NCBI GenBank assembly: GCA_945872355.1
Contig: CAMBZU010000034.1
Coordinates: 1-35,766, forward strand
DNA length: 35,766 nt
From: Chitinophaga pinensis
GTDB lineage: Bacteria > Bacteroidota > Bacteroidia > UBA4408
Reading direction: 5' to 3'
In this document: in pieces, positions 1,670 through 27,933 of the stretch
Numbering within the stretch: position 1 is the stretch's first letter
How the letters are laid out: every line of letters starts with the position of its first letter
The notes under the pieces: model-generated
What the model was told of the DNA's origin: nothing
Database searches by the model: none
Seen by the model: the letters and a program-made list of their open reading frames with translations, nothing else
Position numbers and translations under genes: made by a program

Positions 1670-1696
1670 TGCTTTGAAATATTTAAAAACAAAAAA

Positions 1697-5992: not shown

Positions 5993-7306
5993 ATGAAAGT
6001 TCACCCTATTGTTGACACAAAATTGATTGCTGACCCGTTTAGGTATCTTCCTGAAGGCAAGTCAAAAACAATAATTATTCCTGAGTACTCTGCGATAGTG
6101 CCGGAGGGAGAGCGTGATAAGGTTATTCAAGTGCTTCAAAACCAATTTTCATCACCAATAAATTATCCATTTTTTTTACAACATTACGATGTGTTTGAAT
6201 ATTCACAAGAATTATTTTTACACCTATTTGGAGTTTCTCCAGATGTAAGAATTTATGAATATCACCTCTCTCACAAGGCAAGCTTGTTTCTGCTTTTTAA
6301 TAAGCTATTCATTGAAACAGCAGGAAAACAAGGAGAAATTACCATTAAAATTGATGCAAGCAAATTACCCCATAAAATCGATTGGTTTAAAGACGCTTTA
6401 AATAAAGAACAAAGCCATGGAATTGAGGTTGATAATATTCGTATAGAAAATGATGCTATTTTATTGACTTTTCCAAAAGGATATTATCCAGTAATTGGTG
6501 GTTTGAATTCACTCGATACTGGCTGGAGAACTCCGAACTTTAGCCTTGTATTTGGCACAGAATACGATAAGTTCTTTGAGAAAGATATTAATTACAATAA
6601 TCAAAAGAATGATAGCAACAACGATGTTATATTGGATAATCTCAATCCTTTTATAACGAATGGACCAATTAATGATAATATTGATCCTTACTTTCAAAAG
6701 AAAGGTTTGAATGGCCTTTCACTTTATAGCATTGATAAATACAATTTTAACGATGATATCAAACTAAAAAGATGTTACGCTAATTTAGATACTGATAAGT
6801 ATTTCAAATTGGCCATAGAAAGAGCTGCACATGAATTTATCATCACTATTTTTAACTTTTTATTAGCAATAAATAGAGCCAAGTACCTTCCCATTAATAA
6901 ACATCAGTTTTCTGCTTTAATGCCCCATTTTTATGGGATAGACCGTATCCAAAGTTCAGTAAAACAGTGGGACAAATTAAAACGAATGGCTTTGAGGAGG
7001 CTTTATAATCAATCTGAAGCTTTCGCTAATTCCTTTGGCTCAGAATTAACGTGTAAGCACTTTGTAGATTACTTCATTAAAGACTCAAGTATTAATTTCG
7101 AAAACCTTAAAACAGATCCGGCTAAAGAAATTCTCAAAGCCTTTAAAAATCAACTACAAATTCCGCTATTACTTGATCCAAAGTATGAAATATTTTCAAA
7201 ACATATTGCTAATGGAAAACCTAATGAGGAATTTGATGAATTCTTAAACGGTTCTAAAGGACAAATGGCTGCGAAAAAGGACATTGAGAAGTTATTATTG
7301 CTATAA
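5993..7306 (+). CDS. Unknown 437-aa protein, first gene of the defence operon
   Basis: I do not recognise a family. The protein appears soluble, with no signal peptide or membrane span. The first 100 residues are well-formed alpha/beta (KTIIIPEYSAIVPEGERDKVIQ). A low-complexity Asn/Asp-rich linker lies near residues 198-225 (NYNNQKNDSNND). The second half is mostly helical with basic patches (KQWDKLKRMALRRLY at about 325-340). It is separated from the SNF2 helicase gene by only 17 bp and so is probably co-transcribed and a partner of it. Being first after the control gap, it could be a recognition subunit or structural component, but nothing in the sequence proves this. The ATG at 5993 follows an A-rich leader, usual for Bacteroidota. 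Confidence 0.75.
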   Translation: MKVHPIVDTKLIADPFRYLPEGKSKTIIIPEYSAIVPEGERDKVIQVLQNQFSSPINYPFFLQHYDVFEYSQELFLHLFGVSPDVRIYEYHLSHKASLFLLFNKLFIETAGKQGEITIKIDASKLPHKIDWFKDALNKEQSHGIEVDNIRIENDAILLTFPKGYYPVIGGLNSLDTGWRTPNFSLVFGTEYDKFFEKDINYNNQKNDSNNDVILDNLNPFITNGPINDNIDPYFQKKGLNGLSLYSIDKYNFNDDIKLKRCYANLDTDKYFKLAIERAAHEFIITIFNFLLAINRAKYLPINKHQFSALMPHFYGIDRIQSSVKQWDKLKRMALRRLYNQSEAFANSFGSELTCKHFVDYFIKDSSINFENLKTDPAKEILKAFKNQLQIPLLLDPKYEIFSKHIANGKPNEEFDEFLNGSKGQMAAKKDIEKLLLL

Positions 7307-7323
7307 GTAATTGCAATTCATTT

Positions 7324-10215
7324 ATGAAAGAAAATATATTACAATATATTGCACCTGGTGTTAGAATTTCTTTAAGAGGAGAAGATTTTTTGGTGAATAA
7401 ACGTGAACAAAATTACGATGATTCGTCCATACTTTATTGCCAAGGTTTAAGCGAATTGGTAAAAGGTAAATACTTTGCCTTTGATACCGCTATTGAAAAG
7501 GAAATTACTGTTCTAGAACCTGACAATACTGTTTTGATTGCCGATAATGAAACAGGCTATCAAAAAACTAAATTATTTATTGAAACTGTTTTGCGTAATG
7601 CAAGTTTCACTTCTAAAAAAATAGAGGTATCGCATAAAACTGCTATAAGCGGTGCTGCTTTTCAATATACTCCTACAATTAAAGCATTGAACCTACCTCG
7701 CCCTCGTATTCTTATTGCTGATGCGGTTGGTTTGGGTAAAACAGTTGAAGCCGGAATTTTTATGGCTGAGCTCATTAAACGCGGACAAGGCCAACGTATT
7801 TTAGTAATTGCGCTCAAATCTATCCTTGCGCAATTTCAACAAGAACTATGGAACCGATTTGCTATACCATTGGTGCGTTTAGACTCTGATGGTATTGGTA
7901 AAATAAAGGCTGAGCTTCCAATTAATAAAAACCCATTCGATTATTACGATAAAACAATTATCTCTATTGATACGCTAAAGAACAACGCTAAGTTTAAGCA
8001 TTACCTTGAAAAATCGCGTTGGGATATTATCGCTATTGATGAAGTTCATACGGTCTCTAATATCGATAGTTTAAGAGGTTCTTTAGCACAATTTTTAGCT
8101 ACTCGTTGTGAGGCAATGGTACTTACTTCTGCCACTCCGCATAATGGAAAAAAAGAAAGTTTTGCCAACATCATATCTATGCTGGAGCCAACGGCTATAC
8201 CGCGTAATGGCGATTATTCTAAAGCGGATGTAGAGCCTTATTATGTAAGAAGGTTTAAGAATGACATTATTGAAAACTCCATTAAAGATAAATTTCAAGA
8301 AAGACAGGTCATTACCCTAAATCCAAAATTGAATGATGATGAGATTGCTTTTTTACAATATCAGCAAACTTTAAAGTTTGACGCCCTGCAAACAAAAGAT
8401 GAAAAGAAGAAACGGAAGGATTTTCTATTTTCCATCAGTCTTTTTAAATCGTTTATGTCTTCGCCACAGGCCTGTTTAAAATCGATTGTAAACCGAATTG
8501 AAAAAGTTAAAGAAAGCACAGCTAAAGAAGATTTAAAAGAAAACAACTTAACCATTCTTGAAGAGGCTAAAGTTTTAGTTGAAAAAGTTATTAATAGCGG
8601 AAGCGACAGTAAGTACAATGAATTAAAAAATCATTTAATTGCTAAGGGCTGGAAAGGCAAAAAGAATGATGATCGTATTATTATCTTCTCTGAGCGCATT
8701 GAAACCATGAAGTTTTTGGCCGAATCATTATCAAACGACTTTGACATTGAAAAAGGAACGGATTTATCGGATATGAAAATCATTAAATTATTTGATGGTT
8801 CTATGTCTGATACCGAGCAGCAATTAGCTGTGGAGGATTTTGGTAAAGAAGATTCTGAGGTAAAAGTTTTTATTACTTCTGATGCAGGTTCGCAAGGTGT
8901 TAACTTACACTACTATTGTAATCATTTATACAATTACGACATTCCTTGGTCTATCATTACACTGGATCAGCGTAATGGGCGTATTGATCGTTTTGGCCAA
9001 ACTAAAACGCCATTTATTTTTTATCTATTGGCCGATTCAGAAATTAAAGGGTTGAAAACTGATTTACATATTTTGAAGCGTTTGGCTGAAAAAGAAGATG
9101 AAAAATATAAAACCTTAGGTGATGCAGGGGCTATTATGGGTTTGTTCGATTCTAAAAAAGAAGAATTGAAAGTTCAAAAAACAATGATGACTGGTAATGT
9201 AGAAGCTGTTTTTGAAAAAGCATCCGATGAAGATTTTGATTATACTTCTTTATTTGATGACGCTAATGATAAAACTGAAGCTGTTATTGATGATAAACCT
9301 ATTGAGCATTTCGAAAGTTTCTTTCCTTCTGATTTTGATTACTATCAAACATTAATTAAATATTTAATCAATAACCAGGCTATTGACTCTAGAGATGTTT
9401 CTTTTGGAACCGATGGTTTGATTGAGTTTATTAATACAGATGAGTTAAACAAAGTATTATACGATTTACCTCCTGAATCTAAACCTAAAAAGAATGGGTT
9501 ATTTAAATTAACTATTGATAAAGAAAAAGTTGAAGAGGCAATTGTAAAAGCACGAAAGAAAAAAGGCGAATGGGCTGAGTTTCAAGTAATGTATGATTTG
9601 CATCCCATTATCCGTTTTATGATGACTAAATTGGAAGCGCATATTGATAAGGATAAAGCGTTGGTTTTAAAATCAATTAAATTACCTACTAAAACTCGTT
9701 TCTATATTTTTCATGGCCAAGTTTCTAATGATTTAGGGCAATCTGTTTTATCCGATTTTTTTGTAATAGGAATTGATGAAGACGGTATGTTGTTAACTGA
9801 CGAAAACAAATGGGCCAATCTCACTGATTTCATTCAGAAGTACAAGCTGAATGAAACCATCTATAACGAAGAAATCAGTGATACAGATGTCTATTCTTTA
9901 CAAGGAACTGTGAAAGATGCTGTACTTTATGCAAAAACGCTTTATATGAAAATAAAGCAAGATGATTTAACTAAAGAAATGATTGCTAAACAAAATAGCT
10001 ATCAAGAAAACTTAAAAACCTGGGAGCGCGCTTCAAAAAAACAAATGGAAGTAGAATTCAAAAATCAAACAACGCAATTGGTGCTTGGTAAAAAAATTAA
10101 AGTGGCTAAAGAAATTGACACTATTTTGAACGAACGCTCCCAATACGTTAAGAACTTAACCAGCCTTAACAACGAGGCTTATTTGAAATTAATCGGTGTA
10201 TTTTATAATAATTAA
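7324..10215 (+). CDS. SNF2-family (DrmD-like) DNA helicase/translocase
   Basis: A 963-aa superfamily 2 ATPase with the SNF2 motif set. Motif I is ADAVGLGKT at residues 132-140, motif II DEVH at 239-242 and motif III SATPHNG from 269. YYVRRFKNDI follows, and in the second RecA domain VFITSDAGSQGVNLHYY and QRNGRIDRFGQT (549-560, motif VI). The first 130 residues include a small beta-rich region (VRISLRGEDFLV). The C-terminal 300 residues are charged and partly coiled. This layout resembles DrmD of class 1 DISARM and RapA-like proteins. It should translocate on double-stranded DNA using ATP, without necessarily unwinding it. It ends 5 bp before the methylase gene, the same helicase-methylase pairing as drmD-drmMI. 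All catalytic motifs look intact. Confidence 0.88.
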   Translation: MKENILQYIAPGVRISLRGEDFLVNKREQNYDDSSILYCQGLSELVKGKYFAFDTAIEKEITVLEPDNTVLIADNETGYQKTKLFIETVLRNASFTSKKIEVSHKTAISGAAFQYTPTIKALNLPRPRILIADAVGLGKTVEAGIFMAELIKRGQGQRILVIALKSILAQFQQELWNRFAIPLVRLDSDGIGKIKAELPINKNPFDYYDKTIISIDTLKNNAKFKHYLEKSRWDIIAIDEVHTVSNIDSLRGSLAQFLATRCEAMVLTSATPHNGKKESFANIISMLEPTAIPRNGDYSKADVEPYYVRRFKNDIIENSIKDKFQERQVITLNPKLNDDEIAFLQYQQTLKFDALQTKDEKKKRKDFLFSISLFKSFMSSPQACLKSIVNRIEKVKESTAKEDLKENNLTILEEAKVLVEKVINSGSDSKYNELKNHLIAKGWKGKKNDDRIIIFSERIETMKFLAESLSNDFDIEKGTDLSDMKIIKLFDGSMSDTEQQLAVEDFGKEDSEVKVFITSDAGSQGVNLHYYCNHLYNYDIPWSIITLDQRNGRIDRFGQTKTPFIFYLLADSEIKGLKTDLHILKRLAEKEDEKYKTLGDAGAIMGLFDSKKEELKVQKTMMTGNVEAVFEKASDEDFDYTSLFDDANDKTEAVIDDKPIEHFESFFPSDFDYYQTLIKYLINNQAIDSRDVSFGTDGLIEFINTDELNKVLYDLPPESKPKKNGLFKLTIDKEKVEEAIVKARKKKGEWAEFQVMYDLHPIIRFMMTKLEAHIDKDKALVLKSIKLPTKTRFYIFHGQVSNDLGQSVLSDFFVIGIDEDGMLLTDENKWANLTDFIQKYKLNETIYNEEISDTDVYSLQGTVKDAVLYAKTLYMKIKQDDLTKEMIAKQNSYQENLKTWERASKKQMEVEFKNQTTQLVLGKKIKVAKEIDTILNERSQYVKNLTSLNNEAYLKLIGVFYNN

Positions 10216-10220
10216 GAAGG

Positions 10221-13200
10221 ATGTTTAAGTTTATAGAAAATATTGGCGATTATTTTAGTGGTAACTACTTTACTTCTGACTTTAAAAAGAACGTCATCGA
10301 AAAATCGGGTTACAGTGATGAGGATTTAAAATCTTTTGAAAGTGCAGTGCGTGGCTTAAAAGAAAAATATTTTGCCTACAAAAAAGATTATATTGATTTA
10401 ACGCGGTCTAAAGATCAAATACAACGCACCAATCGCTTTCATAACGAAGTATTAAAATTATTAGGTTACGATGCGGTTAATAATGATTACAACGCGTTAT
10501 TTCATTTAGATGATAAACAAGTATTACCTGTTCGTCAAAAACTATATCGTGGCGATAAGCCTCATCTTTTTATTATGGAGATGAAGGCTTTGATTAAAAC
10601 CGGTGAGCAAGAACCTAAAGGACTGTTTGAACAAAATTGGATTCGTTCGCAATGGGAGTCTGTTTTTGAAGTGCAGGATGGCGATACACTTACGCCAAGC
10701 ATTATTAACGAAGCCATCAACGAACTCTTTTTAATTGACCAACACATACGCCCTACTTATATTTTATTGTTGGCGGGTAACGAAATGTATTTATTGCATT
10801 TCGAAAAATGGTTCAAGGGTTCTTACCTACGTTTTAAGTTGGAAGATTTATTTGATGAGGCTACTTTGCATAAAGATTACTATCAATTATTCTATCTCTT
10901 ACTTTCTAAAAGCAAATTAGCTCCTGAGGCTGATATTTTGTTGATGGATCAGTTGGATGAAGATTCTCACAAAAGTGCTTATGCAGTTACCAAAGATTTA
11001 AAGGAAGGAATCATTCATGCTGTTGAGTTATTGGCAAACGAAGCTTTATACTATAAAAAACAAATTTTAAAAGAAGAGTTTGAAGAAAGCGACGATGCCT
11101 TTGAACAGCAAATGAAAGATGACTGTTTAACAATGGTGTATCGCCTACTATTCTTATTTTATGCCGAGAGCAGACCTGACTTAGGGATTTTACCTATGAA
11201 CGATCAGGTATACGAGAAAGGGTATAGTCTGGATATGCTTCGTGAATTAGAGCAAGTACAACTCAATAGTGAAAGTTCTCGCATAGGTTATTTCTTTCAC
11301 GAATCTTTACAAAGTTTATTTGACTTATTAAATTTGGGTTACAGATCAAAGGAAGTAAATAATAGAAGCTTTTCTATCAATAAACTAGACACTCCTTTGT
11401 TCGAATTTGACAAAGACAAAAATCATCCATTAAACGGAATTAAGTTCCGTAACGGCATTTGGCAAGATATTATTTGCCAGTTAAGTTTATCTCAAAAACA
11501 AAGAGGCAAAGCACGTGGACGTATTTCTTATGCCAATTTGGGCATTAACCAATTGGGAAGTGTTTACGAAGGTTTACTTGCTTACCGTGGTTTTTATGCC
11601 GAGCAAGATTATATTGAAGTACATGAAGCTGGTAAACCAAACGAAGGGACTTTTGTTGTGCCTCGCTCACGCTTAGACGATTTTGAAGACAATGAAATTT
11701 TAAAAGACGAAGAAGGTAAGGTAAAAATATTAACCAAAGGTACTTTTGTGTATCGTTTGAGCGGACGTGATCGCCAGCAATCAGCTTCTTATTACACGCC
11801 TGAGGTTTTAACGCGCACAACTGTAAAATATACACTGAAGCCAATTTTAGAACGCTTAGATAAAAAAGAAATTAAGGCTGATGATTTACTTGATTTAAAA
11901 ATATTAGAACCTGCACAAGGAGCTTCTGCTTTTCAAAACGAAGTAGTAAACCAAATTGCCGATGCGTATTTGGATGCCAAGCAAATTGAATTAAAAAAGA
12001 AAGTTCCTGCTAAAGATTACCAAGACCAATTACAACGTGTAAAAGCATTTATAGCTACCAACAATGTATACGGGGTGGATATTAACCCAACCGCTATTGA
12101 GTTGGGTAAACTAAGCTTATGGCTGAATGTAATACATAAAGATATGGAAGTGCCCTACTTTGGTTACCGCCTTGGTGTTGGTAATGCAGTTGTAGGTACC
12201 TGGCTAAAAGTTTATAAAAAGGGAGACATCCTTTTTGATAAGGATAATAAAAAAGATAAAAAAGAATGGTGGGTTAAAGCACCGGAAATGCGTGCCTTTA
12301 GCAAGGGTAAATTAGCGCGTAAAGAAGATGAGATCTATCATTTTTTATTGCCCGATAAAAACATGGCGCCAAGTGCTGGTATTAAATTATTAAAGGCTGA
12401 ATACCCGGCTGAAGCCAAACGCGTAACCGAATGGAAAACTGAATTTATAAAACCGATTAGAGGCGATGAGTTTATTTTTTTACAAAAAATATGCAATAAG
12501 TTAGATGAACTATTAGAAGAACATTACAACTTCCAAAACCTCATAAACCAATACACTGGCGAAAAGAAAAACTTTTTTGGACACGAGCAACCACAAGGTG
12601 CTTTGTTTACCGCTTATGACGAAAAAGACCAATTAGCGCAACAACGCCATAAACACAATGCCCCTTACTTTAAATTAAAAATGGTAATGGATTACTGGTG
12701 TGCCCTTTGGTTTTGGGATGTGCGCCAGGCTATTGAATTACCAACGCGTAAACAATGGTACGAGGATATAAAAAATATTTTGGAGTTAGATTTAGATACA
12801 GTATTAACCGAAGATGAAGATTTATTTTCACCAGTTGCAGAGCAGCAAACAATTTTTGAAGAACCCAAACAAGCGCGTTTAAAAGCTTACCGAAGCGGTA
12901 AAGAGAAAGAAGTAAGTTTAGATAGCATTAAAAAATACACTAACCGAGCCGACCTATTTGAAAACAAACGCCTAGACATTGTAAAAGAATTAGCCACTAA
13001 ATATCGTTACTTCCATAACCAGTTAGAGTTTATTGAAGTATTTAAACAAAAGGGCGGCTTTGATGTGATTGTTGGTAATCCACCTTGGGTAAAAGTGACT
13101 TTTGAAGAAGGAAGCTTATTAAGTGAAAAGTTTCCTGAAATAGAAATCAGAAAAGAGTCAGCGCCTGAAATTGCCAAAAGGAGACCTGCTTATTTGCTTG

Positions 13201-14960
13201 ACGGAAACAATAAAAAGATGTATTTATCCGAAAGTATTGCTGCTGAGTGTACCGCAGAGTATTTAAATGCTTCTCAAAACTATCATCTGTTAAAAGGCCA
13301 ACAAACTGATTTATATAGATGTGTGATTATTCAAACATTCAGTATTATTAATTCGAAAGGTTCCATAGGATTAATACATCCTGACTCGGTTTATGATGAT
13401 CCCAAAGGGAGAATCTTTCGTGAAGAATCTTTTAGAAGATTAAAGTATCATTTTCAATTTAAAAATGAACTCAAACTTTTTGAAATTGACCATCATAATA
13501 TTTATAGCGTTAATATCTATTCTGGATCAAAGGGAGTTCAAGATTTTTATTCAATTCACAATCTTTTTCATCCACTAACAATTGATAGTTCTTTTCAGCA
13601 TAATGGCCACGGTACTCCAGGCGGAATTAAAAGAAAAAATGATGCAAAAGGTAAATATGTATGGAATATCATTGGGCATGAAAATAGAATAGTAAGATTT
13701 AGAGAGAAGGAGTTAACCCTATTATCACAAACCTTTGAAGATTCAAATAATTGGGAAGGAGCAAAATTAATTTCTATTCATTCAAAAGAAATTATAAATG
13801 TTCTTGAAAGCCTTAATACTTTTAAAAGTAAAATATCTCATAAGCCAAATATTATTACCGAGGGGTGGCATGAAACTAATGATGTTGGTGTTAACATCAA
13901 AAGGGAAACAACATTTCCTTCTTATGAAAAGTTTGAAATGATCTATAATGGACCACATTTTTTTGTTGGTAACCCATTTTACAAAACCCCTAGAACAATT
14001 TGCGAGAAGAATCAAGATTATGATAACATATACTCAACTGAAATAGATGATAAATATTTACCAAGAACTAATTATTTACCCTTTTCAGAAGTTGAAAATT
14101 TCACAACCGCAACCAAAGGATTTAACAAAGATGAAAACTGGATAGATTATTATAAAGTGGCGATGAGCAAAATGATCAGTCTAACTGGTGAAAGATCTTT
14201 ACAACCAGCTATAATTGCACCAAAGGTTTCCCACGTTAATGGAGTAATTTCAATAACATTCCCTGAGCAAAAAAGGATAATAGAATTTGCGGGATTGGCA
14301 TCTTCAATTGTTCTTGATTTTTATGTCAAATCGATTGGTGCTGCAAATTTAACCGATGGAAAATTAAAACATTTTCCAATTGGTGTTGACGAAATAATTT
14401 ATAAAAAAATAGCTGTCCGGACCCTTCTTTTGAATTGTTTGAATATGACTTATTTAAAACTATGGGAAAATAATTTTGAAAATGAATTTTCAAAAGATTC
14501 ATGGTCAAATGGGGACCTAAGATTGAAAAGATTTGATTCCCTATCACCAGAGTGGAATGCAAATACCCCTTTGAGAAATTTTTTTGAAAGGAGACAAGCA
14601 TTAGTAGAAATAGACGTCTTATCTGCAATTGCTCTTGGAATAAGTCTGGATGAACTTTTGATTATTTATAATATTCAATTCCCTGTGCTTCAAAGTTATG
14701 AGGATGATACCTACTATGATAAAAAAGGGAATATAGTATTTACTAATAATTCACAAGGGCTTAAGGCAGTTGGTTTAGATAGGATAGATTGGGAGCGCTT
14801 AAAAAACAACAAAGAAGGAGATGATATAACACATACCATTAGCAAAAGTGAGTTATACAAAGGCAAACAAATAACCTATTACCCACCTTTTACCAAATGT
14901 GATCGCGTAGAAGATTACAAACGCGCTTGGGTGCATTTTGAAGAAAAGTTTAACAAATAA
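10221..14960 (+). CDS. Eco57I-type N6-adenine DNA methylase, large (type IIG/DrmMI/PglX-like)
   Basis: A 1579-aa protein. The catalytic motif IV is NPPW at residues 953-956 in FDVIVGNPPWVKV, typical of N6-adenine methylases. The SAM-binding motif I is ILEPAQGASAF (E563-F571), unusual because most relatives read DPACGSGAF. Motif II-like VYGVDINPTAIELGKLSLW follows at the expected spacing. About 320 residues separate motifs II and IV, longer than in small methylases and suggesting an insertion. The N-terminal 530 residues may hold a nuclease-like fold: D112 and E120-M-K122 (GDKP then FIMEMK), as in type IIG enzymes, but this is tentative. The C-terminal 500 residues probably recognise DNA. It likely methylates host DNA to mark self, with the SNF2 gene 5 bp upstream as partner. 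Motif I may lower or alter SAM binding. Confidence 0.85.
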   Translation: MFKFIENIGDYFSGNYFTSDFKKNVIEKSGYSDEDLKSFESAVRGLKEKYFAYKKDYIDLTRSKDQIQRTNRFHNEVLKLLGYDAVNNDYNALFHLDDKQVLPVRQKLYRGDKPHLFIMEMKALIKTGEQEPKGLFEQNWIRSQWESVFEVQDGDTLTPSIINEAINELFLIDQHIRPTYILLLAGNEMYLLHFEKWFKGSYLRFKLEDLFDEATLHKDYYQLFYLLLSKSKLAPEADILLMDQLDEDSHKSAYAVTKDLKEGIIHAVELLANEALYYKKQILKEEFEESDDAFEQQMKDDCLTMVYRLLFLFYAESRPDLGILPMNDQVYEKGYSLDMLRELEQVQLNSESSRIGYFFHESLQSLFDLLNLGYRSKEVNNRSFSINKLDTPLFEFDKDKNHPLNGIKFRNGIWQDIICQLSLSQKQRGKARGRISYANLGINQLGSVYEGLLAYRGFYAEQDYIEVHEAGKPNEGTFVVPRSRLDDFEDNEILKDEEGKVKILTKGTFVYRLSGRDRQQSASYYTPEVLTRTTVKYTLKPILERLDKKEIKADDLLDLKILEPAQGASAFQNEVVNQIADAYLDAKQIELKKKVPAKDYQDQLQRVKAFIATNNVYGVDINPTAIELGKLSLWLNVIHKDMEVPYFGYRLGVGNAVVGTWLKVYKKGDILFDKDNKKDKKEWWVKAPEMRAFSKGKLARKEDEIYHFLLPDKNMAPSAGIKLLKAEYPAEAKRVTEWKTEFIKPIRGDEFIFLQKICNKLDELLEEHYNFQNLINQYTGEKKNFFGHEQPQGALFTAYDEKDQLAQQRHKHNAPYFKLKMVMDYWCALWFWDVRQAIELPTRKQWYEDIKNILELDLDTVLTEDEDLFSPVAEQQTIFEEPKQARLKAYRSGKEKEVSLDSIKKYTNRADLFENKRLDIVKELATKYRYFHNQLEFIEVFKQKGGFDVIVGNPPWVKVTFEEGSLLSEKFPEIEIRKESAPEIAKRRPAYLLDGNNKKMYLSESIAAECTAEYLNASQNYHLLKGQQTDLYRCVIIQTFSIINSKGSIGLIHPDSVYDDPKGRIFREESFRRLKYHFQFKNELKLFEIDHHNIYSVNIYSGSKGVQDFYSIHNLFHPLTIDSSFQHNGHGTPGGIKRKNDAKGKYVWNIIGHENRIVRFREKELTLLSQTFEDSNNWEGAKLISIHSKEIINVLESLNTFKSKISHKPNIITEGWHETNDVGVNIKRETTFPSYEKFEMIYNGPHFFVGNPFYKTPRTICEKNQDYDNIYSTEIDDKYLPRTNYLPFSEVENFTTATKGFNKDENWIDYYKVAMSKMISLTGERSLQPAIIAPKVSHVNGVISITFPEQKRIIEFAGLASSIVLDFYVKSIGAANLTDGKLKHFPIGVDEIIYKKIAVRTLLLNCLNMTYLKLWENNFENEFSKDSWSNGDLRLKRFDSLSPEWNANTPLRNFFERRQALVEIDVLSAIALGISLDELLIIYNIQFPVLQSYEDDTYYDKKGNIVFTNNSQGLKAVGLDRIDWERLKNNKEGDDITHTISKSELYKGKQITYYPPFTKCDRVEDYKRAWVHFEEKFNK

Positions 14961-14972
14961 AATATATAAATT

Positions 14973-15749
14973 ATGTCAAAAATATTAATTGAACAAGCAT
15001 TGCGTAGAGGTATTGAAGTGAATGAACTTCATAGAGTTACTTTAATGAATGGAATAACTCGTCAAAGAGAGAATTCATTTACTAACGCAATGGTGCCATA
15101 TATAACTTATTTGTTCTCACAAGTAAGAGTATATAATAACAAATTGATCGATTTAGTTAAAATTGAGCTTTCAAAGAAAAAAAAGATTACCAAGGAAATG
15201 CTTCACCAAGTAGAATGGGCCTTGGAAGCGAAACATTATAGTCCACATCAAGCAAATTATATCCCACTGAGTTTAGAAGGACCAACAAAGGATGTACTAA
15301 AGTTAACAGATTGTGGCTTTTCAAAGTTTTATATTTTACAACTACAAACAGAGGTTGTTGATTTTACAATTAACACAGGTTCAACCTATGCTCAATTTTT
15401 AGTTGAATTTCCATTTATGAAATACCTAAGCAAGGCAACTAAAGCACAAGCCATAGCAAATATTGCTAATGTAGGTGTTGCTCCTAATTCTAGGATTGAT
15501 GCATTAATTGCTGCATCTAGAATAAGATTGGATGCAAATTTAATTTATAATAATATTGAAAAAGTAGTTGAAGGTATTAATGGCAAAGTAAAAGTTAAAA
15601 TTCATTATTTAATAAGTGGGCCTTTTAATTCTGAAGATATACGTAATAGGCTTTATGCTGCTGGTTATAACAATGTCCAACCACTTTATGATCAATATAA
15701 TGCAATGCCTGATATTAATGTTAGCATTCAGTCGGATGTAAATGCGTAA
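14973..15749 (+). CDS. Unknown 258-aa protein of the defence operon
   Basis: No family recognised. It is soluble, with a helical N-terminal half containing a Lys-rich patch (LSKKKKITKEM near residues 67-77) and a middle section with YSPHQANYIPLS. The last 60 residues look alpha/beta (VKVKIHYLISGPFNSEDIRNRLYAAGYNN). A small stretch (IANVGVAPNSRIDALIAASRIRLDAN, about 160-185) is Ala-rich and helical. The gene starts 12 bp after the methylase stop and so belongs to the operon. Its size and lack of enzyme motifs suit an adaptor, specificity or inhibitor role, but this is only a guess. Confidence 0.72.
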   Translation: MSKILIEQALRRGIEVNELHRVTLMNGITRQRENSFTNAMVPYITYLFSQVRVYNNKLIDLVKIELSKKKKITKEMLHQVEWALEAKHYSPHQANYIPLSLEGPTKDVLKLTDCGFSKFYILQLQTEVVDFTINTGSTYAQFLVEFPFMKYLSKATKAQAIANIANVGVAPNSRIDALIAASRIRLDANLIYNNIEKVVEGINGKVKVKIHYLISGPFNSEDIRNRLYAAGYNNVQPLYDQYNAMPDINVSIQSDVNA

Positions 15750-15783
15750 ATAAATTAAAATGTACAACTTGATCTAACAATCT

Positions 15784-15981
15784 ATGACAACTTATGAAAA
15801 AGTTTATAAAACCATAAAAAACAGAAGCGTATTTATTATTAAAACGGATGAGTTATTTAATGATGCCGTCCATTATTTAGCCGAATACATTCATTCAAAT
15901 AAAATTAGAGAGTATAATTTTTTGGAAATTATACTTTTCTCTCCAAACAATTTTAAAACAAAATTAGAATACGAAGCTTAA
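15784..15981 (+). CDS. Small 65-aa protein of the defence operon
   Basis: Short hypothetical gene beginning MTTYEKVYKTIKN with mixed helix/strand content and no metal or catalytic motif. Its stop (15979-15981) directly abuts the ATG of the AlbA_2/GHKL gene, with no bases between, which suggests translational coupling and supports it being real. It lies 34 bp after the 258-aa gene. It might be a small regulator or antitoxin-like partner; nothing visible decides this. No similar small gene is seen elsewhere in the window. Confidence 0.5.
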   Translation: MTTYEKVYKTIKNRSVFIIKTDELFNDAVHYLAEYIHSNKIREYNFLEIILFSPNNFKTKLEYEA

Positions 15982-17352: not shown

Positions 17353-17357
17353 GATAA

Positions 17358-20300
17358 ATGTTAGCACTCCAACAAGCATACGAGGTTAAAGTCTCTATTA
17401 CAGAGTATTTAAAGGCAACCTATAATTTCCAAGATAAGGAAGTTGAAAGGGCATTTCTTCGTTTAATAGAAAATGAAAATGATGGCATGTTTAAAGGGCC
17501 GTATATTTCATTAAAGCTGCCCTACAAAAAGTTTGAAGGTGATTTGGCAAACTTAAATATCGCCATTTTACCAGAGTTTCGTCCTTTTATTCACCAAGCA
17601 ATTGTATTTGATCGTTTAAGCACAAATAATAACCACCAACCATTACCAACAGTATTAACTACAGGAACAGCATCTGGTAAAACAGAGGCATTTTTATACC
17701 CAATAATTGATTATTGCTTCAATCAAAAAAACAGAAAAGGAATAAAAGCCATTATTCTATATCCAATGAACGCTTTAGCTACCGACCAAGCACAAAGGAT
17801 AGCTGAAGCAATACATTCAGACGAAAGAACCAGAGGGAAGGTTACAGCGGGGCTTTTTATTGGAGAAGGACAAAACAAGGATAAGAAATATCCTAAGGAG
17901 ATGGGCGAAAAGAATATTATTGAGCATAGAGATACAATTTTAGCCAATCCTCCAGATATTTTACTCACCAACTTTAAGATGTTGGACTATGCTTTAATGA
18001 GAAGCAAATTTCATGACTTGTGGGAACATAATTTTGAAGACACTTCGCTTTTAAAGTTTTTAGTGTTAGATGAATTACATACCTACGATGGAGCGCAAGG
18101 AACGGATGTAGCTAACCTAATAAGACGTTTAAAATTAAAACTAAACATTGATAAAGGTCAAATTTGCTCGGTTGGAACATCTGCCACCATTGGTTCTGGA
18201 GATGATGCACCTTTGTTATTGGCCGATTATGCTAAAAAAGTTTTCGGGGAAGAATTTAGTAAGGATTCTATTATTGGAGAGACCCGAATTGATGCTGATG
18301 ATTTTTTTGAAGGTGTAGTATTTAAAAATTTTATCCCTACAGATTACCTGCTTTCTGATAGTAGAATTAAAGGCGATGATACCTATCAAACTTATATTCA
18401 AAAGCAACTAATTCTTTTTGGAATTAACCCTAAAATATCAACTACAGATTTAGGTTCAGAATTAAAGAAATACAGAATTGTTTACGATGTATTAAACATT
18501 TGCAAGGCAGGCATTATAGATTTTAAAGAATTAATTATAGAACTAGCACGCGTTAACCATGAATTTAAGCAACTTTCAGAATGGTCGAAAGAATATAACT
18601 TCTCTCCAAAAGAAACGCTAATACGATCCATTCTAACACTTATTTCCGAAGCAAAAGTTCAAGAGGGTACAAAAGTATTTCCATTGTTGTATGTGCAAGT
18701 TCAATTATGGATTCGCGAACTCTCTGGCATATTAAGGCTATTTCAAGAAGAGCCAGTATTTAGTTGGAAGGATTCTGTATCAACGGATGATAAGGTCAAA
18801 GCATTACCTCCCTATTTCTGCAGAGAATGTGGCACAAGTGGCTGGGCAACAGTAAAACATGATAATAGAAACAATATCGAAGATGATATAAGCGATACCT
18901 ACCAAAAGTATTTTGGTAATCATAAAAACTTATACTTTACAAACACAAACAAAGAAGGTCACCTAAAAATTGATGAGTACCAACCAAGTGACACCCTAGA
19001 TCATTATGTTGATGTAAATACGTTAGGTTTATACCACGAGGAAAAAAAGAATAGATTTAGAACAATTTCTTATCGTAAAATTATTGGTACAAAGGCAGAT
19101 CACGTTTGTCCGATTTGCAATAGCAGAAATACAATAGCTATTATCGGCACCAAAACTGCCACATTAAGCAGCATTAGTATCAGTCAGGTAATATCTTCCG
19201 AACTTGACAAAACGATTGAAAAGGATAGAAAGGTATTAGCCTTTACAAACGGGGTTCAAGACGCAGCGCATCAGGCCGGTTTTATTGAAGCAAGAAATTA
19301 CCGTTTTACATTCCGTTCTGCTATTCAAAAAGTTGTTAATCTTCAAAATGATGAAATTTCTTTGGATGCATTTCAACGTAAATTTAAAGAATACTGGCTA
19401 GCAAATGCAGATGATTCAAAGAAAAAGCCCATTGAAGCCTATATCTATAAATTCTTTCCTTCCGATCATTTAGGAGATGTAAAGATTAACAATTATAAAA
19501 AAGGAGAAGAAAAATTTGATCCTCAATTTATAGAGGAATTAAATAGACGAATTGACTGGGAGATTGCAAGTGAGTTTGGGTATAATGCAGTTTTGGGAAG
19601 GACTTTAGAAAAAACAGGATCATCGGCCACCTATTTTAAGAATGAAGACTTAGATTTAGTTTATACTCATATTAATCCTTGGCTAACAAAGGAAAATATG
19701 AGTATGATAAACAAGGAAGATTTCATCAAATTTCTAAATGCATTTTTACATCGTTTAAGAACTAAAGGTGGCATTAAACACCCCTATTTAAATAAGTTCA
19801 GAAGTGAGAAAAGTAATTATTACCTAATTACTACAAAAACAAATAAGCAGTATTTTTTGCTTAGAAATTTTGGACGAAAAACCAGATTGCCAAAGTTTAT
19901 TTCAGATCAACCTTCCGGAGTTTTTGATGTTACATTAAAACTGACTCCAAGTACAAATTGGTTTCATGCTTATTTCAAAAAATCATTTCCTTTAGTGCCA
20001 CAAAGTGACCCACTAATAAATGATTTTTACAGTCAGCTTTTAAAAGTATTGGCGAGTACTGATGTGTGTATTTTAGATGAAAAATCAGCAGATGGTGTAA
20101 GAAACTTCGCCTTAAATAGTGCCAAACTATATATAAAAAAGCAGGTAGTTTCATTTAAATGTGATGTTTGCGACCATGAATTAAATATTGCCGATTTAGA
20201 TGGAATAGAAGGTGCATCTTGTATTAATTTCAGATGCCATGGCCACTATCATCTTTTGTTAAAAGATGAAGCAGAAAACTATTACCGACAAGTATATAAC

Positions 20301-23300
20301 CGTTCGCGTTCGCCAAGAATATACGCAACAGAGCATACAGGATTATTGGAAAGAGGTGTTAGAGAAATGAAGGAATTTCAATTTAAGCAAAGACCGTTTT
20401 TTAATTCGTTAAATGCACTTGTTGCTACTTCAACGTTAGAGATGGGTATTAATATTGGAGATTTAAATACTACACTAAATAATTCTATTCCACCCTTACC
20501 ATCTAATTTTATACAAAGGGTTGGTCGTGCTGGTCGTTCATCCGGTTCTGCATTAATAGTAAATTTTGCTGCTAATGAAGCGCATGACCAATACTATTAC
20601 CAAGAGCCAAAAGAAATGATGCAAGGCGAAGTTAATTCACCAGGCTGTTATCTAGAAGCTAAGGAAATATTAAAGAGACACTTTTTTGCATTTTGTATAG
20701 ACGAATGGACTAAATCTGACCATACTAAAAATTCAATTCCTCCAAATTTTAGATTGAAGCCATTTCAAATTGAATTTACAGATCTGAATGAGCAAACACT
20801 ATTTTTCAATCGCATCATAAGCTTTATAAAAGTACAAGAAGCTGAATTATATAAAAAGTTTACAATTCACTTAACTGAATATGTTTCTAAAGAAACATTG
20901 AAAGAACTATACGAAACCATTCGTTCAGGGCGATTATACACTTCAATTGTTCAAGAGTTTCAAGACGTGCAGGAAGAAGTAAAAGCACTTCGCATTAAAC
21001 AAAAACAAATTAAAAAGCAATTAGATCAGGGTAATTTGGCTATAAATGATGAAGAACGAGAGTTGCTTGATAGAGAACACAAAAATATGTGGGGTGCTAT
21101 AAAATCAATTGTTAAACGATCTGTGCTTGAACATTTAACCAATGTAGGTTTACTGCCTAATTATGCTTTCCCGGAAACAGGAGTAACTTTAAATGCGCAG
21201 GTTAGAAATAGAAATTTAACTGGTGTTGGAGATAATAATTATTCATCAAAAAGTATTGAGTTAATTAGACCTGCCAAATCTGCTTTACGCGAATTGGTGC
21301 CCGAAAACTATTTCTATACTCAAGGTTATAAATTAAAAATTAGCGGCTTAAACATTATAAGTTGGAAAGAAGAAGTTTTAAATTATAGATTTTGTTCAAA
21401 TTGCGATAATTTAGAAATTGATAGCGGTCAGTTAGGTGCATGTCCTAAGTGTGATGATTTATCATGGGGTTCTGCTAACAATAAACATAAGTTTAATAAA
21501 CTAAAGGCTGTTAAATCCTTTAATGATGAAGCAAGTGCTACTCTGGATGATACCAGTGAAGAAAGAGAACAAAAAATATCAAAAGTAACTACGCATTTTA
21601 AATTTGAGCCAAAATCAACTCAAGGAGCATACGCAATGGTTAAAATTCCTTTTGGTATTGAATACCTAAAGGAAGTTGATATATACCAAATCAATACCGG
21701 CTTAAGCGAATATAGCAGTTCAAGGGAATTAACAATTAACGAGAATAAGGTGCCTATACAAGGTTATGTAACTTGTAAACATTGTGGTAAATCAAGTAGC
21801 AATCCATTTGAAGAAAAGAGACATTATGTTTGGTGTAAGAAAAAAGATCATGAGTATGAAAATAAATCTGACGATGTTTTTGAAGAAATTTATCTTTTCA
21901 GACAATTAAAAACAGAGGCTATTAAGATTTTATTGCCTGTTCAGGAATTTGATTCAGAAAGCACAATAGCGATGTTCAAATCAGGTATTGAACTTGGCTT
22001 AAAACATTATTACAAAGGCAACCCACAACATATAGAAATTAAGGATTATAAAGAGTATAATAAGCAAACTTTACGAACAGATAGATTTATAGTTTTGTTT
22101 GATGTTATACCAGGTGGAACAGGATACCTTTCCAAATTATTTGATAAGGAACAATTTTCAGAACTAATTGAGAATGCCTATAAAGCAATAAAAGAATGTT
22201 CATGTCAATTCTCTGGAAAGGATGGGTGTTATAGATGTATTTATACTTATGGCAACCAATTTGAGCGTGAAGAACTTAGCCGAGAAAGAGCGGAGGAACT
22301 ATTCAGAAGATTATATGATGCGCGCGAAAAATGGGACTATATTGCAGATGGTTTAAATGACATTACCAATTCAGGTAAAATTGAAGAATCCGAATTGGAA
22401 GAACGATTTATAAGAGGAATTAAAAATTACGCAACTCAAGAGGAACAACAATTATTAGGTTGGGATTTTCAAACTATTACAATAGATGGCGTAAATACAT
22501 ATAAGCTTAAAATTATAAATGGCGCAACTGAATACTTCTATTCAATAAGCCCTCAAGTGAATCTGGGAAGAAGCGAAGGAGTTTTATATCCAACCAGAAC
22601 GGACCACATGATTACCTGCATTGATGTTAAGAAAAATGGCGAATCTATTAAGATTAAAGATTTGCAAAGGATTCCTTCAATAGCTGTTTACCTTGATGGC
22701 TATCAATATCATGCTACTAAAGAGAGCAATCGGTTTATTGGAGATATTCAAAAACGGATTTCAATTGTTGATACTGGAAGATATTTGACTTGGACTTTAA
22801 CTTGGGAGGATTTAAATTATTTTGAAGCCTTAGTCACTAATTTAAAAATCAAGGAAGAAAAGGGAACTAGTCAAAAAAAACTAAATGATCAAGATAGTTT
22901 ATACCTTAAAATAAAAGATTATGATTCAAATTATTTAAAATTAAAAAAGGGACCAAACTATAATAACTTTGATGATGAATTAAAAAAGAAGAAAAATAAT
23001 TTAGACAGGTTGATTTATGTTCTATCAAATTTGGATTCTGAGCCATTATTAAGTGGTAAAATTACAAAGCAATTACTGTTCGGTTTGCAGGGAGCATTTC
23101 TTTCATTACCAATGAAGGAAGAAAAGGCTAAAGAATTGGTAACTCAAAATATTATAGACTTTTCAAAAGTTGAAATATTTAAAAGTGAAGATTCTTATTT
23201 GTTTGTTGATGGTTTTCCAGTATTGGAAGATTTTGACTTTAAATTATTTATGAACTTAAAAAGTCACAAGATTATTTCGAAAATAGAAGTGCCAACATTA

Positions 23301-23693
23301 ACAACTAACTATAACAAAAAAAGTTGGGAAAACTTTTGGACACTATTTAATTGGATGCAATTTGGATTAAGTCAGTTTGATATTAGACTTAATGCTCATT
23401 CAACACAATCAAGTTCAAGTAAGGAAGAAACAGTTGAAGATATATTAAATAATTTTGATCCCGCTTTAGCGCCAATCGTCAAAGAACTTTTAGCCCACAA
23501 TCTTGAGTTTAATAAAGATTCTTATTTTTCTATATTAGATGAAAACGGTGGTATAATTGCGGAAGCAATGCTTGGTATTCCTCATAAAAAAATAGTTATT
23601 GAGCCATTAAGTGAAGATTGCCAAAATAAATTTATTGAAAATGGATATACCGAATTGAATATTTCAAACTTTAACATTAACAACATTATTTAA
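17358..23693 (+). CDS. Giant DEAD-box/DUF1998 helicase with zinc modules and Vsr-like tail (DruE/DrmA-DrmB-like)
   Basis: A 2111-aa superfamily 2 helicase. Motif I is TGTASGKT (102-109), motif II DELH at 238-241, followed by TYDGAQGTD. The second RecA domain has STLEMGINIGDLN and QRVGRAGR (1053-1060). Between them lie about 700 residues with a split Cys motif (C488/C491 and C584/C587) and a further C-x2-C pair (CDVC) near 935. After the helicase come more C-x2-C pairs (CSNC, CPKC, CKHC) and the DUF1998 signature with C1614, C1616, C1624 and C1627 (GCYRCIYTYGN). Near 1775-1825, VYLDGYQYH, GDIQKR and LTWTLTWEDL resemble a Vsr/DUF559-like nuclease fold (D1780, H1785). Length and order match Druantia DruE; in DISARM the helicase and DUF1998 parts are separate (DrmA, DrmB). 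Likely the central DNA-engaging motor. Confidence 0.88.
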   Translation: MLALQQAYEVKVSITEYLKATYNFQDKEVERAFLRLIENENDGMFKGPYISLKLPYKKFEGDLANLNIAILPEFRPFIHQAIVFDRLSTNNNHQPLPTVLTTGTASGKTEAFLYPIIDYCFNQKNRKGIKAIILYPMNALATDQAQRIAEAIHSDERTRGKVTAGLFIGEGQNKDKKYPKEMGEKNIIEHRDTILANPPDILLTNFKMLDYALMRSKFHDLWEHNFEDTSLLKFLVLDELHTYDGAQGTDVANLIRRLKLKLNIDKGQICSVGTSATIGSGDDAPLLLADYAKKVFGEEFSKDSIIGETRIDADDFFEGVVFKNFIPTDYLLSDSRIKGDDTYQTYIQKQLILFGINPKISTTDLGSELKKYRIVYDVLNICKAGIIDFKELIIELARVNHEFKQLSEWSKEYNFSPKETLIRSILTLISEAKVQEGTKVFPLLYVQVQLWIRELSGILRLFQEEPVFSWKDSVSTDDKVKALPPYFCRECGTSGWATVKHDNRNNIEDDISDTYQKYFGNHKNLYFTNTNKEGHLKIDEYQPSDTLDHYVDVNTLGLYHEEKKNRFRTISYRKIIGTKADHVCPICNSRNTIAIIGTKTATLSSISISQVISSELDKTIEKDRKVLAFTNGVQDAAHQAGFIEARNYRFTFRSAIQKVVNLQNDEISLDAFQRKFKEYWLANADDSKKKPIEAYIYKFFPSDHLGDVKINNYKKGEEKFDPQFIEELNRRIDWEIASEFGYNAVLGRTLEKTGSSATYFKNEDLDLVYTHINPWLTKENMSMINKEDFIKFLNAFLHRLRTKGGIKHPYLNKFRSEKSNYYLITTKTNKQYFLLRNFGRKTRLPKFISDQPSGVFDVTLKLTPSTNWFHAYFKKSFPLVPQSDPLINDFYSQLLKVLASTDVCILDEKSADGVRNFALNSAKLYIKKQVVSFKCDVCDHELNIADLDGIEGASCINFRCHGHYHLLLKDEAENYYRQVYNRSRSPRIYATEHTGLLERGVREMKEFQFKQRPFFNSLNALVATSTLEMGINIGDLNTTLNNSIPPLPSNFIQRVGRAGRSSGSALIVNFAANEAHDQYYYQEPKEMMQGEVNSPGCYLEAKEILKRHFFAFCIDEWTKSDHTKNSIPPNFRLKPFQIEFTDLNEQTLFFNRIISFIKVQEAELYKKFTIHLTEYVSKETLKELYETIRSGRLYTSIVQEFQDVQEEVKALRIKQKQIKKQLDQGNLAINDEERELLDREHKNMWGAIKSIVKRSVLEHLTNVGLLPNYAFPETGVTLNAQVRNRNLTGVGDNNYSSKSIELIRPAKSALRELVPENYFYTQGYKLKISGLNIISWKEEVLNYRFCSNCDNLEIDSGQLGACPKCDDLSWGSANNKHKFNKLKAVKSFNDEASATLDDTSEEREQKISKVTTHFKFEPKSTQGAYAMVKIPFGIEYLKEVDIYQINTGLSEYSSSRELTINENKVPIQGYVTCKHCGKSSSNPFEEKRHYVWCKKKDHEYENKSDDVFEEIYLFRQLKTEAIKILLPVQEFDSESTIAMFKSGIELGLKHYYKGNPQHIEIKDYKEYNKQTLRTDRFIVLFDVIPGGTGYLSKLFDKEQFSELIENAYKAIKECSCQFSGKDGCYRCIYTYGNQFEREELSRERAEELFRRLYDAREKWDYIADGLNDITNSGKIEESELEERFIRGIKNYATQEEQQLLGWDFQTITIDGVNTYKLKIINGATEYFYSISPQVNLGRSEGVLYPTRTDHMITCIDVKKNGESIKIKDLQRIPSIAVYLDGYQYHATKESNRFIGDIQKRISIVDTGRYLTWTLTWEDLNYFEALVTNLKIKEEKGTSQKKLNDQDSLYLKIKDYDSNYLKLKKGPNYNNFDDELKKKKNNLDRLIYVLSNLDSEPLLSGKITKQLLFGLQGAFLSLPMKEEKAKELVTQNIIDFSKVEIFKSEDSYLFVDGFPVLEDFDFKLFMNLKSHKIISKIEVPTLTTNYNKKSWENFWTLFNWMQFGLSQFDIRLNAHSTQSSSSKEETVEDILNNFDPALAPIVKELLAHNLEFNKDSYFSILDENGGIIAEAMLGIPHKKIVIEPLSEDCQNKFIENGYTELNISNFNINNII

Positions 23694-23695
23694 AT

Positions 23696-25783
23696 ATGAA
23701 GTTTTATATATATGAAAAGTTTATGGATTCCTTTATCAAGCTTCCAAAAGTAGCTCAGAAAAGGACCATGGACTTCATGGAAAAATTTAGAACCAATCCA
23801 AAATCAGCTGCAATTAATTTAGAGAAGATTGTTTCTTTTAAAGATCAACAATTAAGATCTGCAAGAATTGACCAAACATATAGAGCTATTGTACATGTTT
23901 CTAAAACAGATGATGTGTACCATCTACTTTGGGCCGATCATCATGATGATGCCTATGCTTGGGCTAAGAATAAGGTATTTGAATGGAACAATATGACTCA
24001 ATCTTATCAAGTCTTTGATTTGGCTGATGATATAATTTTGTCCAAGGCGAATGTTGAAGAAAAGAAATCAGGGTTATTTGCTTCTTATACTAACGAGCAA
24101 TTGGAGCGTATTGGTCTACCACCAGTTCTTATTCCTAGTTTGCGTGAAGTTATAGATTTAAATGGATTACAAGCGTTAGAAAAGTACTTACCTGAAGATG
24201 TTTTTGAAAATGTCTTTTATTTGGTTGATGGCTTGCCAATTGAAGATATTATTAGGGAAATTGAAGAAGGCAAAGCAATTGCAGGTGCAACTCAGGAAGA
24301 TACTGACAACAACAAGAGATACTTCTTTGAAATCACAGATAAAGATTTGGAATCCATTTTTTCTGATGATTTCAACAAGTGGCGTATTTTCCTGCATCCT
24401 TCTCAACGTAAAATTGTTAACTCAATTAACAAAGGTCCTATTAAAGTTACTGGCTTAGCAGGCACTGGGAAAACGGTATGCGCATTACATAGAGCGAAAC
24501 ATCTGATAGATCATTATAACATACAAAAAAACAAACCTTTATTGTTTACGACTTTTACAAAAAGTTTAGTGAAGGATTTAAAGGAATCACTTACAGCGCT
24601 TGGGGTAGATGAATCTAAAATAGAAGTGATTCACATACATGGCCTTGCAGTAGAGTTGGCAAAAAAGAATAGTTTAATCCCTGTGAAGGCAAAAATACTT
24701 GAGTTTACAGACTCAGAGTATAAATTAAAGTTATGGGAAGAAGTTTTGGATTCAACCATCAGTGAGTTTGATGCAGATTTTCTAAGTACGGAATTTTCTG
24801 AAATTGTTGTTCAAAATAACCTATCAACAGAAGAAGAATACTTAAGAGTGCCGAGAATTGGAAGGTCACAAAAACTTGGAAGAAAAGATCGGATTGAAAT
24901 TTGGAAAGCCTTTGATGCTTATATTAAAAAGAAAAATAAGGATGGCTATTTTGAATTAGGTGAGGTTCTTAATTTATTAAATAATCATTTTGTAAATAGC
25001 GCAAATAAGCCCTACTCATACATCATTGCTGATGAAATACAAGACTTTTCAAATGTAGAGTTAAGGCTGATGAGATCGATGACTGAAGAGCATGAAAATG
25101 ACTTATTTTTAGTTGGCGATCCTTTCCAGAAAATCTACTCTCGCAAAATTAATTTCTCTAAGGCTGGGATAAATGTAAAAGGAAACAGAAGCAAGCAACT
25201 AAAGGTTAATTACAGAACGACAGAGGAAATTAAAAGATTGGCTTTATCAACCGTTCAGGGAATAGAATATGACAACTTTGATGGTGAACGTGAGAGTTCA
25301 AAAGGTTACATATCATTAACACACGGAGAAAAACCTGTATATATCAATTTTGATAAAGAGTCAGAAGAGTTTGAATTTATCAGAGCTAAAATAGAAGATT
25401 TTATAAGTTCTAATTCGAATATTGCCTTCAATGATATTTGTATTGCTTGTCGTACAAAAAACATTTTAAGCGATGTTAAAAAGCATTTACATAATTCTAA
25501 AATCCCTTATTATGATGTAACTACATCAACAGGGAAAACGACTGGAGTTCACCTAACCACTTACCACAATGTGAAAGGACTTGAATTTAAAATTGTTTTT
25601 CTAACTGGAATAAATTCAAAAACATTGCCATTACGTCCGGTTGCTTATGAAACATGGGATAAGGTTCAACAAGTTGAATTTGACACCATGGAAAGGTCGT
25701 TGCTTTATGTAGCAATGACAAGGGCAATACAGCAGTTGATTATTACAGGAACTGGGAAGAAGAGTGATTGGATAAGGCTATAA
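23696..25783 (+). CDS. RelE/ParE-like domain fused to a UvrD/Rep-type superfamily 1 helicase
   Basis: A 695-aa protein. Residues 1-97 have the compact RelE/ParE layout: YEKFMDSFIKLPKVAQKR, FRTNPKSAAINLEKI, then RSARIDQTYRAIVHV and VYHLLWADHHDDAYAWA. The helicase follows: motif I GLAGTGKT (253-260), motif II DEIQD (446-450), GDPFQKIY, NYRTTEEIKRL, the C-terminal motif TTYHNVKGLEFKIVFL and motif VI YVAMTRA. All look intact, so ATP-driven 3'-5' translocation on single-stranded DNA is expected. RelE proteins cleave mRNA on ribosomes and ParE proteins poison gyrase; here the domain may instead be a nucleic-acid-binding part, or a toxin released on infection. The gene starts 2 bp after the giant helicase stop and ends the operon. 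No separate antitoxin gene is adjacent. Confidence 0.87.
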   Translation: MKFYIYEKFMDSFIKLPKVAQKRTMDFMEKFRTNPKSAAINLEKIVSFKDQQLRSARIDQTYRAIVHVSKTDDVYHLLWADHHDDAYAWAKNKVFEWNNMTQSYQVFDLADDIILSKANVEEKKSGLFASYTNEQLERIGLPPVLIPSLREVIDLNGLQALEKYLPEDVFENVFYLVDGLPIEDIIREIEEGKAIAGATQEDTDNNKRYFFEITDKDLESIFSDDFNKWRIFLHPSQRKIVNSINKGPIKVTGLAGTGKTVCALHRAKHLIDHYNIQKNKPLLFTTFTKSLVKDLKESLTALGVDESKIEVIHIHGLAVELAKKNSLIPVKAKILEFTDSEYKLKLWEEVLDSTISEFDADFLSTEFSEIVVQNNLSTEEEYLRVPRIGRSQKLGRKDRIEIWKAFDAYIKKKNKDGYFELGEVLNLLNNHFVNSANKPYSYIIADEIQDFSNVELRLMRSMTEEHENDLFLVGDPFQKIYSRKINFSKAGINVKGNRSKQLKVNYRTTEEIKRLALSTVQGIEYDNFDGERESSKGYISLTHGEKPVYINFDKESEEFEFIRAKIEDFISSNSNIAFNDICIACRTKNILSDVKKHLHNSKIPYYDVTTSTGKTTGVHLTTYHNVKGLEFKIVFLTGINSKTLPLRPVAYETWDKVQQVEFDTMERSLLYVAMTRAIQQLIITGTGKKSDWIRL

Positions 25784-26812: not shown

Positions 26813-26854
26813 GTTTTATTGATTTTAAGGCTGCAAGATTTCACTATAATTCTA

Positions 26855-26886: not shown

Positions 26887-26893
26887 TTGCTAA

Positions 26894-27895: not shown

Positions 27896-27933
27896 TTATT
27901 CGCTTTCATATTATCAGTATTATTTTTTTGCTT

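Follow-up and report, generated by a model that had tools for sequence, protein, structure and literature searches.

A predicted ARMADA Type II operon of Chitinophaga pinensis with an exchangeable slot between armB and armC

ARMADA was named in a 2025 preprint as a link between the systems DISARM and Druantia (Bell et al. 2025, PMC12458937). According to the main text of this preprint, Type II operons keep a strict gene order, the last gene encoding a GajB-like helicase fused to a RelE domain. The same text reports that in Escherichia coli (strains NCTC 12900 and ATCC 8739), the only host in which ARMADA was tested, all four arm genes are required for phage protection, as are most of the residues tested in the ATPase and methylase motifs, and that protection is non-abortive. 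In BREX, extra effectors can be embedded in the operon. BrxU of pEFER is one example (PMC8565348), and a survey describes the combination of Schlafen, histidine-kinase and winged helix-turn-helix (wHTH) domains as a backup RNase effector in at least 1017 taxa (PMC12839542). Here we describe a set of eight genes (5993-25783) on a stretch of 35,766 nucleotides from Chitinophaga pinensis (contig CAMBZU010000034.1 of assembly GCA_945872355.1), which is called the window below. Taken as a whole, the locus is best explained as an ARMADA Type II operon with an exchangeable slot between armB and armC that holds genes of a second layer of defence; we put the probability of this reading at about 0.8.

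The four-gene core

The eight open reading frames all lie on the plus strand, encode proteins of 437, 963, 1579, 258, 65, 456, 2111 and 695 amino acids (aa) and are spaced by 0-34 bp, at the positions given in the first-pass annotation, which had been made from the letters of the DNA. Judged by sequence, the four large genes are armA, armB, armC and armD of ARMADA Type II. The product of armA (7324-10215) is an SNF2/RapA helicase similar to BrxHII and DrmD (Walker A K139, Walker B D239), and that of armB (10221-14960) a PglX-like N6-adenine methyltransferase (N953 of the NPPW motif, G567 of the S-adenosylmethionine motif). The gene armC (17358-23693) encodes a YprA-family DEAD helicase with an MZB/DUF1998 domain (Walker A K108, Walker B D238) and armD (23696-25783) a UvrD/GajB-like helicase with a RelE-like N-terminus (Walker A K259, Walker B D446). 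Pfam confirmed the domains annotated earlier: SNF2 and Helicase_C in ArmA, an Eco57I-type methylase in ArmB, DEAD, Helicase_C and the DUF1998-type zinc domain MZB in ArmC, and UvrD in ArmD. For the proposed RelE-UvrD fusion this covers the UvrD part. The RelE part has no match to a Pfam RelE model and was assigned by alignment, as the whole N-terminal part of ArmD can be aligned with E. coli ArmD, which Bell et al. describe as RelE-UvrD.

The comparison used as reference an E. coli locus with the same ARMADA array (RM12579, L134). Global identities between window and reference are 33% for ArmA, 40% for ArmB, 32% for ArmC and 36% for ArmD, and the homology extends over the full length of the proteins. 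The reference carries the expected letters at all eight residue numbers given by Bell et al. (K136/D236, G605/N971, K110/D234 and K266/D454 in ArmA to ArmD), and all eight of these mutated residues are conserved in the window. The gene order is that of ARMADA Type II as well (BrxHII-like, PglX-like, YprA, RelE-UvrD), with cargo between armB and armC. ArmC aligns with E. coli ArmC with 859 bits over 1,901 aa, compared with about 109 bits in separate pieces for E. coli DruE3. At its C-terminus a Vsr-type nuclease motif (DG...H...D..KR) aligns with E. coli ArmC at the motif level, and CxxC motifs are found at comparable positions; they may belong to the zinc-binding modules that ArmC of ARMADA Type II has along with a BrxA-like insert. 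Since both the gene order and all eight mutated residues agree with ARMADA Type II, these four genes do not make up a system still without a name; the core is already known. What distinguishes the window from the E. coli operon is the additional genes: whereas no gene lies between armB and armC in E. coli, the window has three there and an orphan gene for a 437-aa protein ahead of armA.

With class 1 DISARM the operon has the pair of SNF2 helicase and methylase in common, but its DUF1998-type domain is part of ArmC and does not form a separate DrmB, and neither DrmB nor the PLD nuclease DrmC is among the PADLOC matches listed for the eight genes. With Druantia III (DruE/DruH) it shares the DruE-type helicase core of ArmC. 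However, methylase, SNF2 and UvrD genes are present, ArmC resembles its E. coli namesake far more than it does DruE, and the listed PADLOC matches contain no DruH and no DruA-D. The first-pass annotation had noticed that DISARM-like parts (SNF2 helicase and methylase) and Druantia-like parts (the giant DUF1998 helicase) are combined here, which is borne out, ARMADA being the link between the two. It had also suspected a known but differently named variant, and for the four large genes, including the RelE-UvrD gene, this suspicion was right.

The armB/armC junction in related loci

Related loci were collected by a scan of genome contigs with ArmB alignment, which gave the best 80 hits (the named loci, L), and were supplemented with seven loci from viral contigs and nine from a phylum-wide search. 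A junction was counted as filled when at least 300 bp lay between neighbouring arm genes. By this measure the armB/armC junction is filled in 45 of 63 resolved loci, the armA/armB junction in 10 of 75 and the armC/armD junction in none of 29; about 18 further loci have a normal armC-armD spacing. In the gene maps armA-armB-armC-armD form a constant spine, and the content of the armB/armC junction differs between genomes. The cargo is mostly co-directional with the arm genes and tightly packed into the operon.

The identified cargo consists mostly of known defence genes, often of complete systems. Zorya I was recognised by its model in L101 and similar genes are present in L122; L105 holds Zorya II together with a GmrSD-like gene and an ADP-ribosylglycohydrolase gene. 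Gabija was found in L108, GmrSD in L091, and AbiEi/AbiEii in L048, by similarity in L067 and L070, and by equal gene sizes and reading of the sequence in genome G142. TmtA was recognised by its model in L055, with similar genes in L058, L061, L063, L064 and L077, and TmtA-like genes are combined with a Mokosh-like helicase in L047. Further cargo comprises a Mokosh-like helicase with PIN and AAA genes (L053), AlkB, Hsp70 and UvrD-like genes (L052), AAA_5 (L072), KAP and Schlafen (L126), and NERD-UvrD with a second YprA helicase (L113).

The last of these loci seemed to have an insertion between armC and armD, which proved to be apparent only: it is the second YprA helicase within the armB/armC slot. 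In L113/L207 (Oceanospirillales XeTr1) the slot accommodates this additional helicase gene of the YprA family (1966 aa) together with genes for proteins of 835, 402 and 1121 aa. A YprA-like helicase of 2099 aa also occurs outside ARMADA, behind genes for 376-, 1042- and 821-aa proteins (L014/L015, genome G344), and possibly belongs to another YprA-based system.

On a tree of 63 ArmB sequences, the type of cargo must have changed no fewer than 28 times, and its presence or absence no fewer than 16 times. The cargo labels were set by hand from family hits and similarity clusters; because the label "other" pools unlike cargo, the 28 changes are a minimum for the labels used. Well-supported sister pairs with different cargo are L051/L082, L052/L072, L055/L059 and L054/L115. 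In the Marinobacter pair L105/L121 the DNA is 94.2% identical over 8.56 kb in armC-armD and 80-91% identical in armA-armB, and the cargo, 15.7 kb in one and 9.5 kb in the other, is non-homologous. Homology ends about 20 bp before the armB stop codon and restarts 9 bp before the armC start codon, the pattern that recombination within the core genes on both sides would leave when cargo is exchanged. By their sequences, the compared loci establish the slot and its turnover: the same spot has repeatedly been refilled with other defence systems.

In E. coli the slot is empty. In 475 of 518 genomes a 4-kb query across the junction is matched in one place over at least 80% of its length, and among the records listed the matches span about 4 kb, except for one record with an insertion sequence and two partial matches. 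This may explain why Bell et al. did not come across the slot in their experiments. In the literature searched, no earlier description of a conserved exchange slot inside ARMADA Type II was found, and it seems to be new.

The cassette of the window and the island

In the window the slot, as delimited by comparison, extends from 14961 to 17357 and holds 2.4 kb of cargo with three plus-strand genes. These are one instance of the variable cassette and not fixed components of the system. The third gene (15982-17352) encodes the 456-aa protein, for which the earlier AlbA_2/GHKL call agrees with the Pfam matches to AlbA_2 (E-value 2.8e-24), HATPase_c_4 of the GHKL type (1.2e-20) and a winged HTH (HTH_24, 1.6e-5); a weak Schlafen match was obtained in the PDB. 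It would be a Schlafen/AlbA_2 RNase-like domain joined to a GHKL ATPase and a winged HTH. Residues E15 and E20 and the acidic third position, D53, are kept in nearly all relatives, and we take them to correspond to the catalytic acids of Schlafen13. Close relatives of the gene are present in 12 of 197 other Bacteroidota genomes. Genes of this type with 53-67% identity lie between armA and armB in three ARMADA operons (L048, L049 and L074), and a 63% identical one in L178 (genome G011) is flanked, within 8778-16640, by PglX-like and PglZ-like genes, an arrangement that is presumably of the BREX type. The predicted protein has the Schlafen-GHKL-wHTH architecture of the backup effectors, here lodged in a methylation-based defence operon.

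The first cargo gene (14973-15749) encodes the 258-aa protein, possibly a PD-(D/E)XK nuclease, with the motif D60 ... E85-x-K87 in IDLV...EWALEAKHYSPHQ. Its sole homologue was found in genome G212, 36% identical over 143 aa and with the identical motif in the shared IDLV...EW.LEAKHYSPHQ; none was found in plasmids, viral contigs or other ARMADA loci. One weak PADLOC match (E-value 2.7e-4) is not meaningful. About 1.2 kb from this homologue, G212 carries a gene (L186:1874-2839) that is 78% identical to the gene of a DUF4268 protein upstream of the operon in the window (3149-4087), and both may travel on related elements. The second cargo gene (15784-15981) encodes the 65-aa orphan, which has no family match and no counterpart in other ARMADA loci.

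The first gene of the operon, for the 437-aa orphan (5993-7306, plus strand), ends 17 bp ahead of armA, and its membership is uncertain. No homologue was found in 394 other Bacteroidota genomes, in plasmids, in viral contigs or in any ARMADA neighbourhood. None of the 437-, 258- and 65-aa proteins had a match of meaningful score in Pfam, NCBIfam or PHROGs, and a sequence search of the PDB with the 437- and 258-aa proteins gave nothing credible. With a mean predicted local distance difference test score of 33.7 and 43.4, respectively, the AlphaFold models of these two proteins are too poor for use of the fold.

The locus sits on an integrase-bearing island. The operon is flanked by the DUF4268 gene and a CoiA-like gene on one side and by a mobile-element module on the other (25986-29037, minus strand), which consists of two small genes, one of them an excisionase-like HTH_17 gene, a gene for a 284-aa protein and a tyrosine integrase gene (27934-29037). 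The latter ends the island and adjoins the 3' end of a gene (29237-30616) that we take to be mnmE, recognised from its sequence (protein terminus FTRFCIGK). Relatives from the genus keep mnmE and the next gene (CHU_C) without the island; a search next to mnmE for a second copy of the attachment site found none. Outside the island, the window contains two tandem proteins with collagen repeats and Fib_succ_major-like domains (251-3103; 472 and 468 aa), related copies of which occur elsewhere in the genome, and a 1520-aa surface protein with PKD, Ig_7 and type IX secretion (CHU_C) domains (30624-35186).

Alternative readings, mechanism and meaning

Several points weigh against an exchangeable slot with second-layer genes. 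The empty slot in E. coli implies that the cargo is not needed for defence. Co-transcription was deduced from gene spacing only, because a scan for promoters and terminators gave no more sites than shuffled sequence. The sample, built on the best 80 hits, covers a part of all ARMADA, 23 of its loci were unresolved, and some of the smaller counted gaps may be frameshifts or small open reading frames and not cargo. In the window, the 437- and 65-aa proteins are orphans, and the PD-(D/E)XK call comes from a motif common to two sequences, with no usable model. As to novelty, the words "accessory" and "nested" are absent from the main text of the preprint (PMC12458937), but its supplementary tables might list accessory genes.

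The 456-aa protein could also be a regulator. More generally, the slot genes could be regulators or silencing parts of ARMADA, e.g. for transcriptional control by GHKL-wHTH proteins or for immunity, and not an independent second layer. The winged HTH at the C-terminus of the AlbA_2 protein, the small or single-gene cargo of some loci and the packing of the cargo into the operon by a few bases fit this idea. Yet it is unlikely in view of the complete independent systems among the cargo of relatives (Zorya, Gabija, GmrSD, AbiE), which need no ARMADA, of the same type of Schlafen gene in a BREX-like operon, and of the retained acidic residues expected of a Schlafen RNase. An ordinary defence island subject to random drift, in which armB/armC is nothing special, appears quite improbable. 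ARMADA does occur on integrase-bearing islands and other defence genes are found upstream of armA as well, but the strong bias in position (45/63 against 10/75 and 0/29), the co-directional and tight packing of the cargo and the breakpoints at gene ends speak against it.

The first-pass annotation had proposed an undescribed eight-gene antiphage system, and the operon-like packing of all eight genes would suit a system that requires each of them. This is very doubtful: the core order and motifs are those of a system whose four genes suffice in E. coli, and since the four large genes correspond to ARMADA Type II, named in 2025 with the same order, the system is not undescribed. Only these four genes match a single named system; the 437-aa gene and the 258-aa, 65-aa and AlbA_2 genes do not. 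The co-occurrence of the genes is split in the same way, armA to armD being constant, the 437-, 258- and 65-aa genes missing from every other ARMADA locus and the 258-aa, 65-aa and AlbA_2 genes forming a variable cassette. A new eight-gene system was rejected on these two grounds, the identity of the core and the absence of the outer genes elsewhere. Finally, ArmB matches the PADLOC model PDLC03614 (REase_MTase_IIG) end to end with 1604 bits, which could point to a stand-alone type IIG restriction-modification enzyme with unrelated helicase neighbours. But in nearly all loci ArmB homologues directly follow ArmA and precede ArmC-ArmD, and protection in E. coli needs all four genes, so that this is hardly conceivable. 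The type IIG label is probably an older name for the ArmB family, with ArmB proteins contained in the model. PDLC03614 appears to describe the ARMADA ArmB, and hence PADLOC may mis-annotate ArmB.

A possible mechanism of the ARMADA Type II operon with its second-layer slot is the following. ArmB would mark host DNA by N6-adenine methylation and ArmA would translocate along unmarked DNA, upon which ArmC, with its helicase and putative C-terminal Vsr-type nuclease, and ArmD would destroy or stall phage DNA without killing the cell. As the operon is apparently one transcription unit, the core and the slot genes would be produced together, the latter providing a further layer of defence. In the window a Schlafen-like RNase, controlled by its GHKL ATPase and wHTH, could shut down translation as a backup once the core is blocked, and the 258-aa protein is perhaps a DNase acting as second-line effector. 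New cargo would enter the slot by homologous recombination in the conserved genes on its two sides, armB and armC, and different hosts would therefore carry different second layers.

BrxU, the BREX backup effectors and the anticodon nucleases PrrC and RloC are precedents for such a backup. BREX resembles the window in being a methylation-type operon in whose core Schlafen + histidine-kinase + wHTH proteins, GmrSD or OLD/TOPRIM proteins are lodged (PMC12839542). In contrast to BREX, PglZ, BrxC and BrxL are not in the window operon (model searches gave no PglZ or BrxC match), and insertions into ARMADA occur mainly at one junction and nest whole multi-gene systems such as Zorya. Type I restriction systems with PrrC or RloC likewise keep an RNase beside the restriction system, which is released once restriction is blocked; core and RNase family differ from those found here, and a control of the RNase by ARMADA would be hypothetical.

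We are thus somewhat inclined to regard ARMADA Type II as a chassis, with a fixed core and a dedicated armB/armC slot through which whole second-line systems are swapped by recombination and co-expressed. If this is true, position alone predicts function, and the slot can be mined for defence genes not yet known, e.g. the family of the 258-aa protein. As a search rule, any gene that a newly sequenced genome carries at the armB/armC junction would be a candidate antiphage gene. The usual picture of defence islands is one of loose clusters. Here, a single junction of one operon is reused repeatedly, implying that expression together with the core is selected for. Work on E. coli, with its empty slot, may then have captured the activity of ARMADA operons in part only, and the idea of a core plus a backup effector would extend from BREX and type I restriction to the newly named ARMADA.

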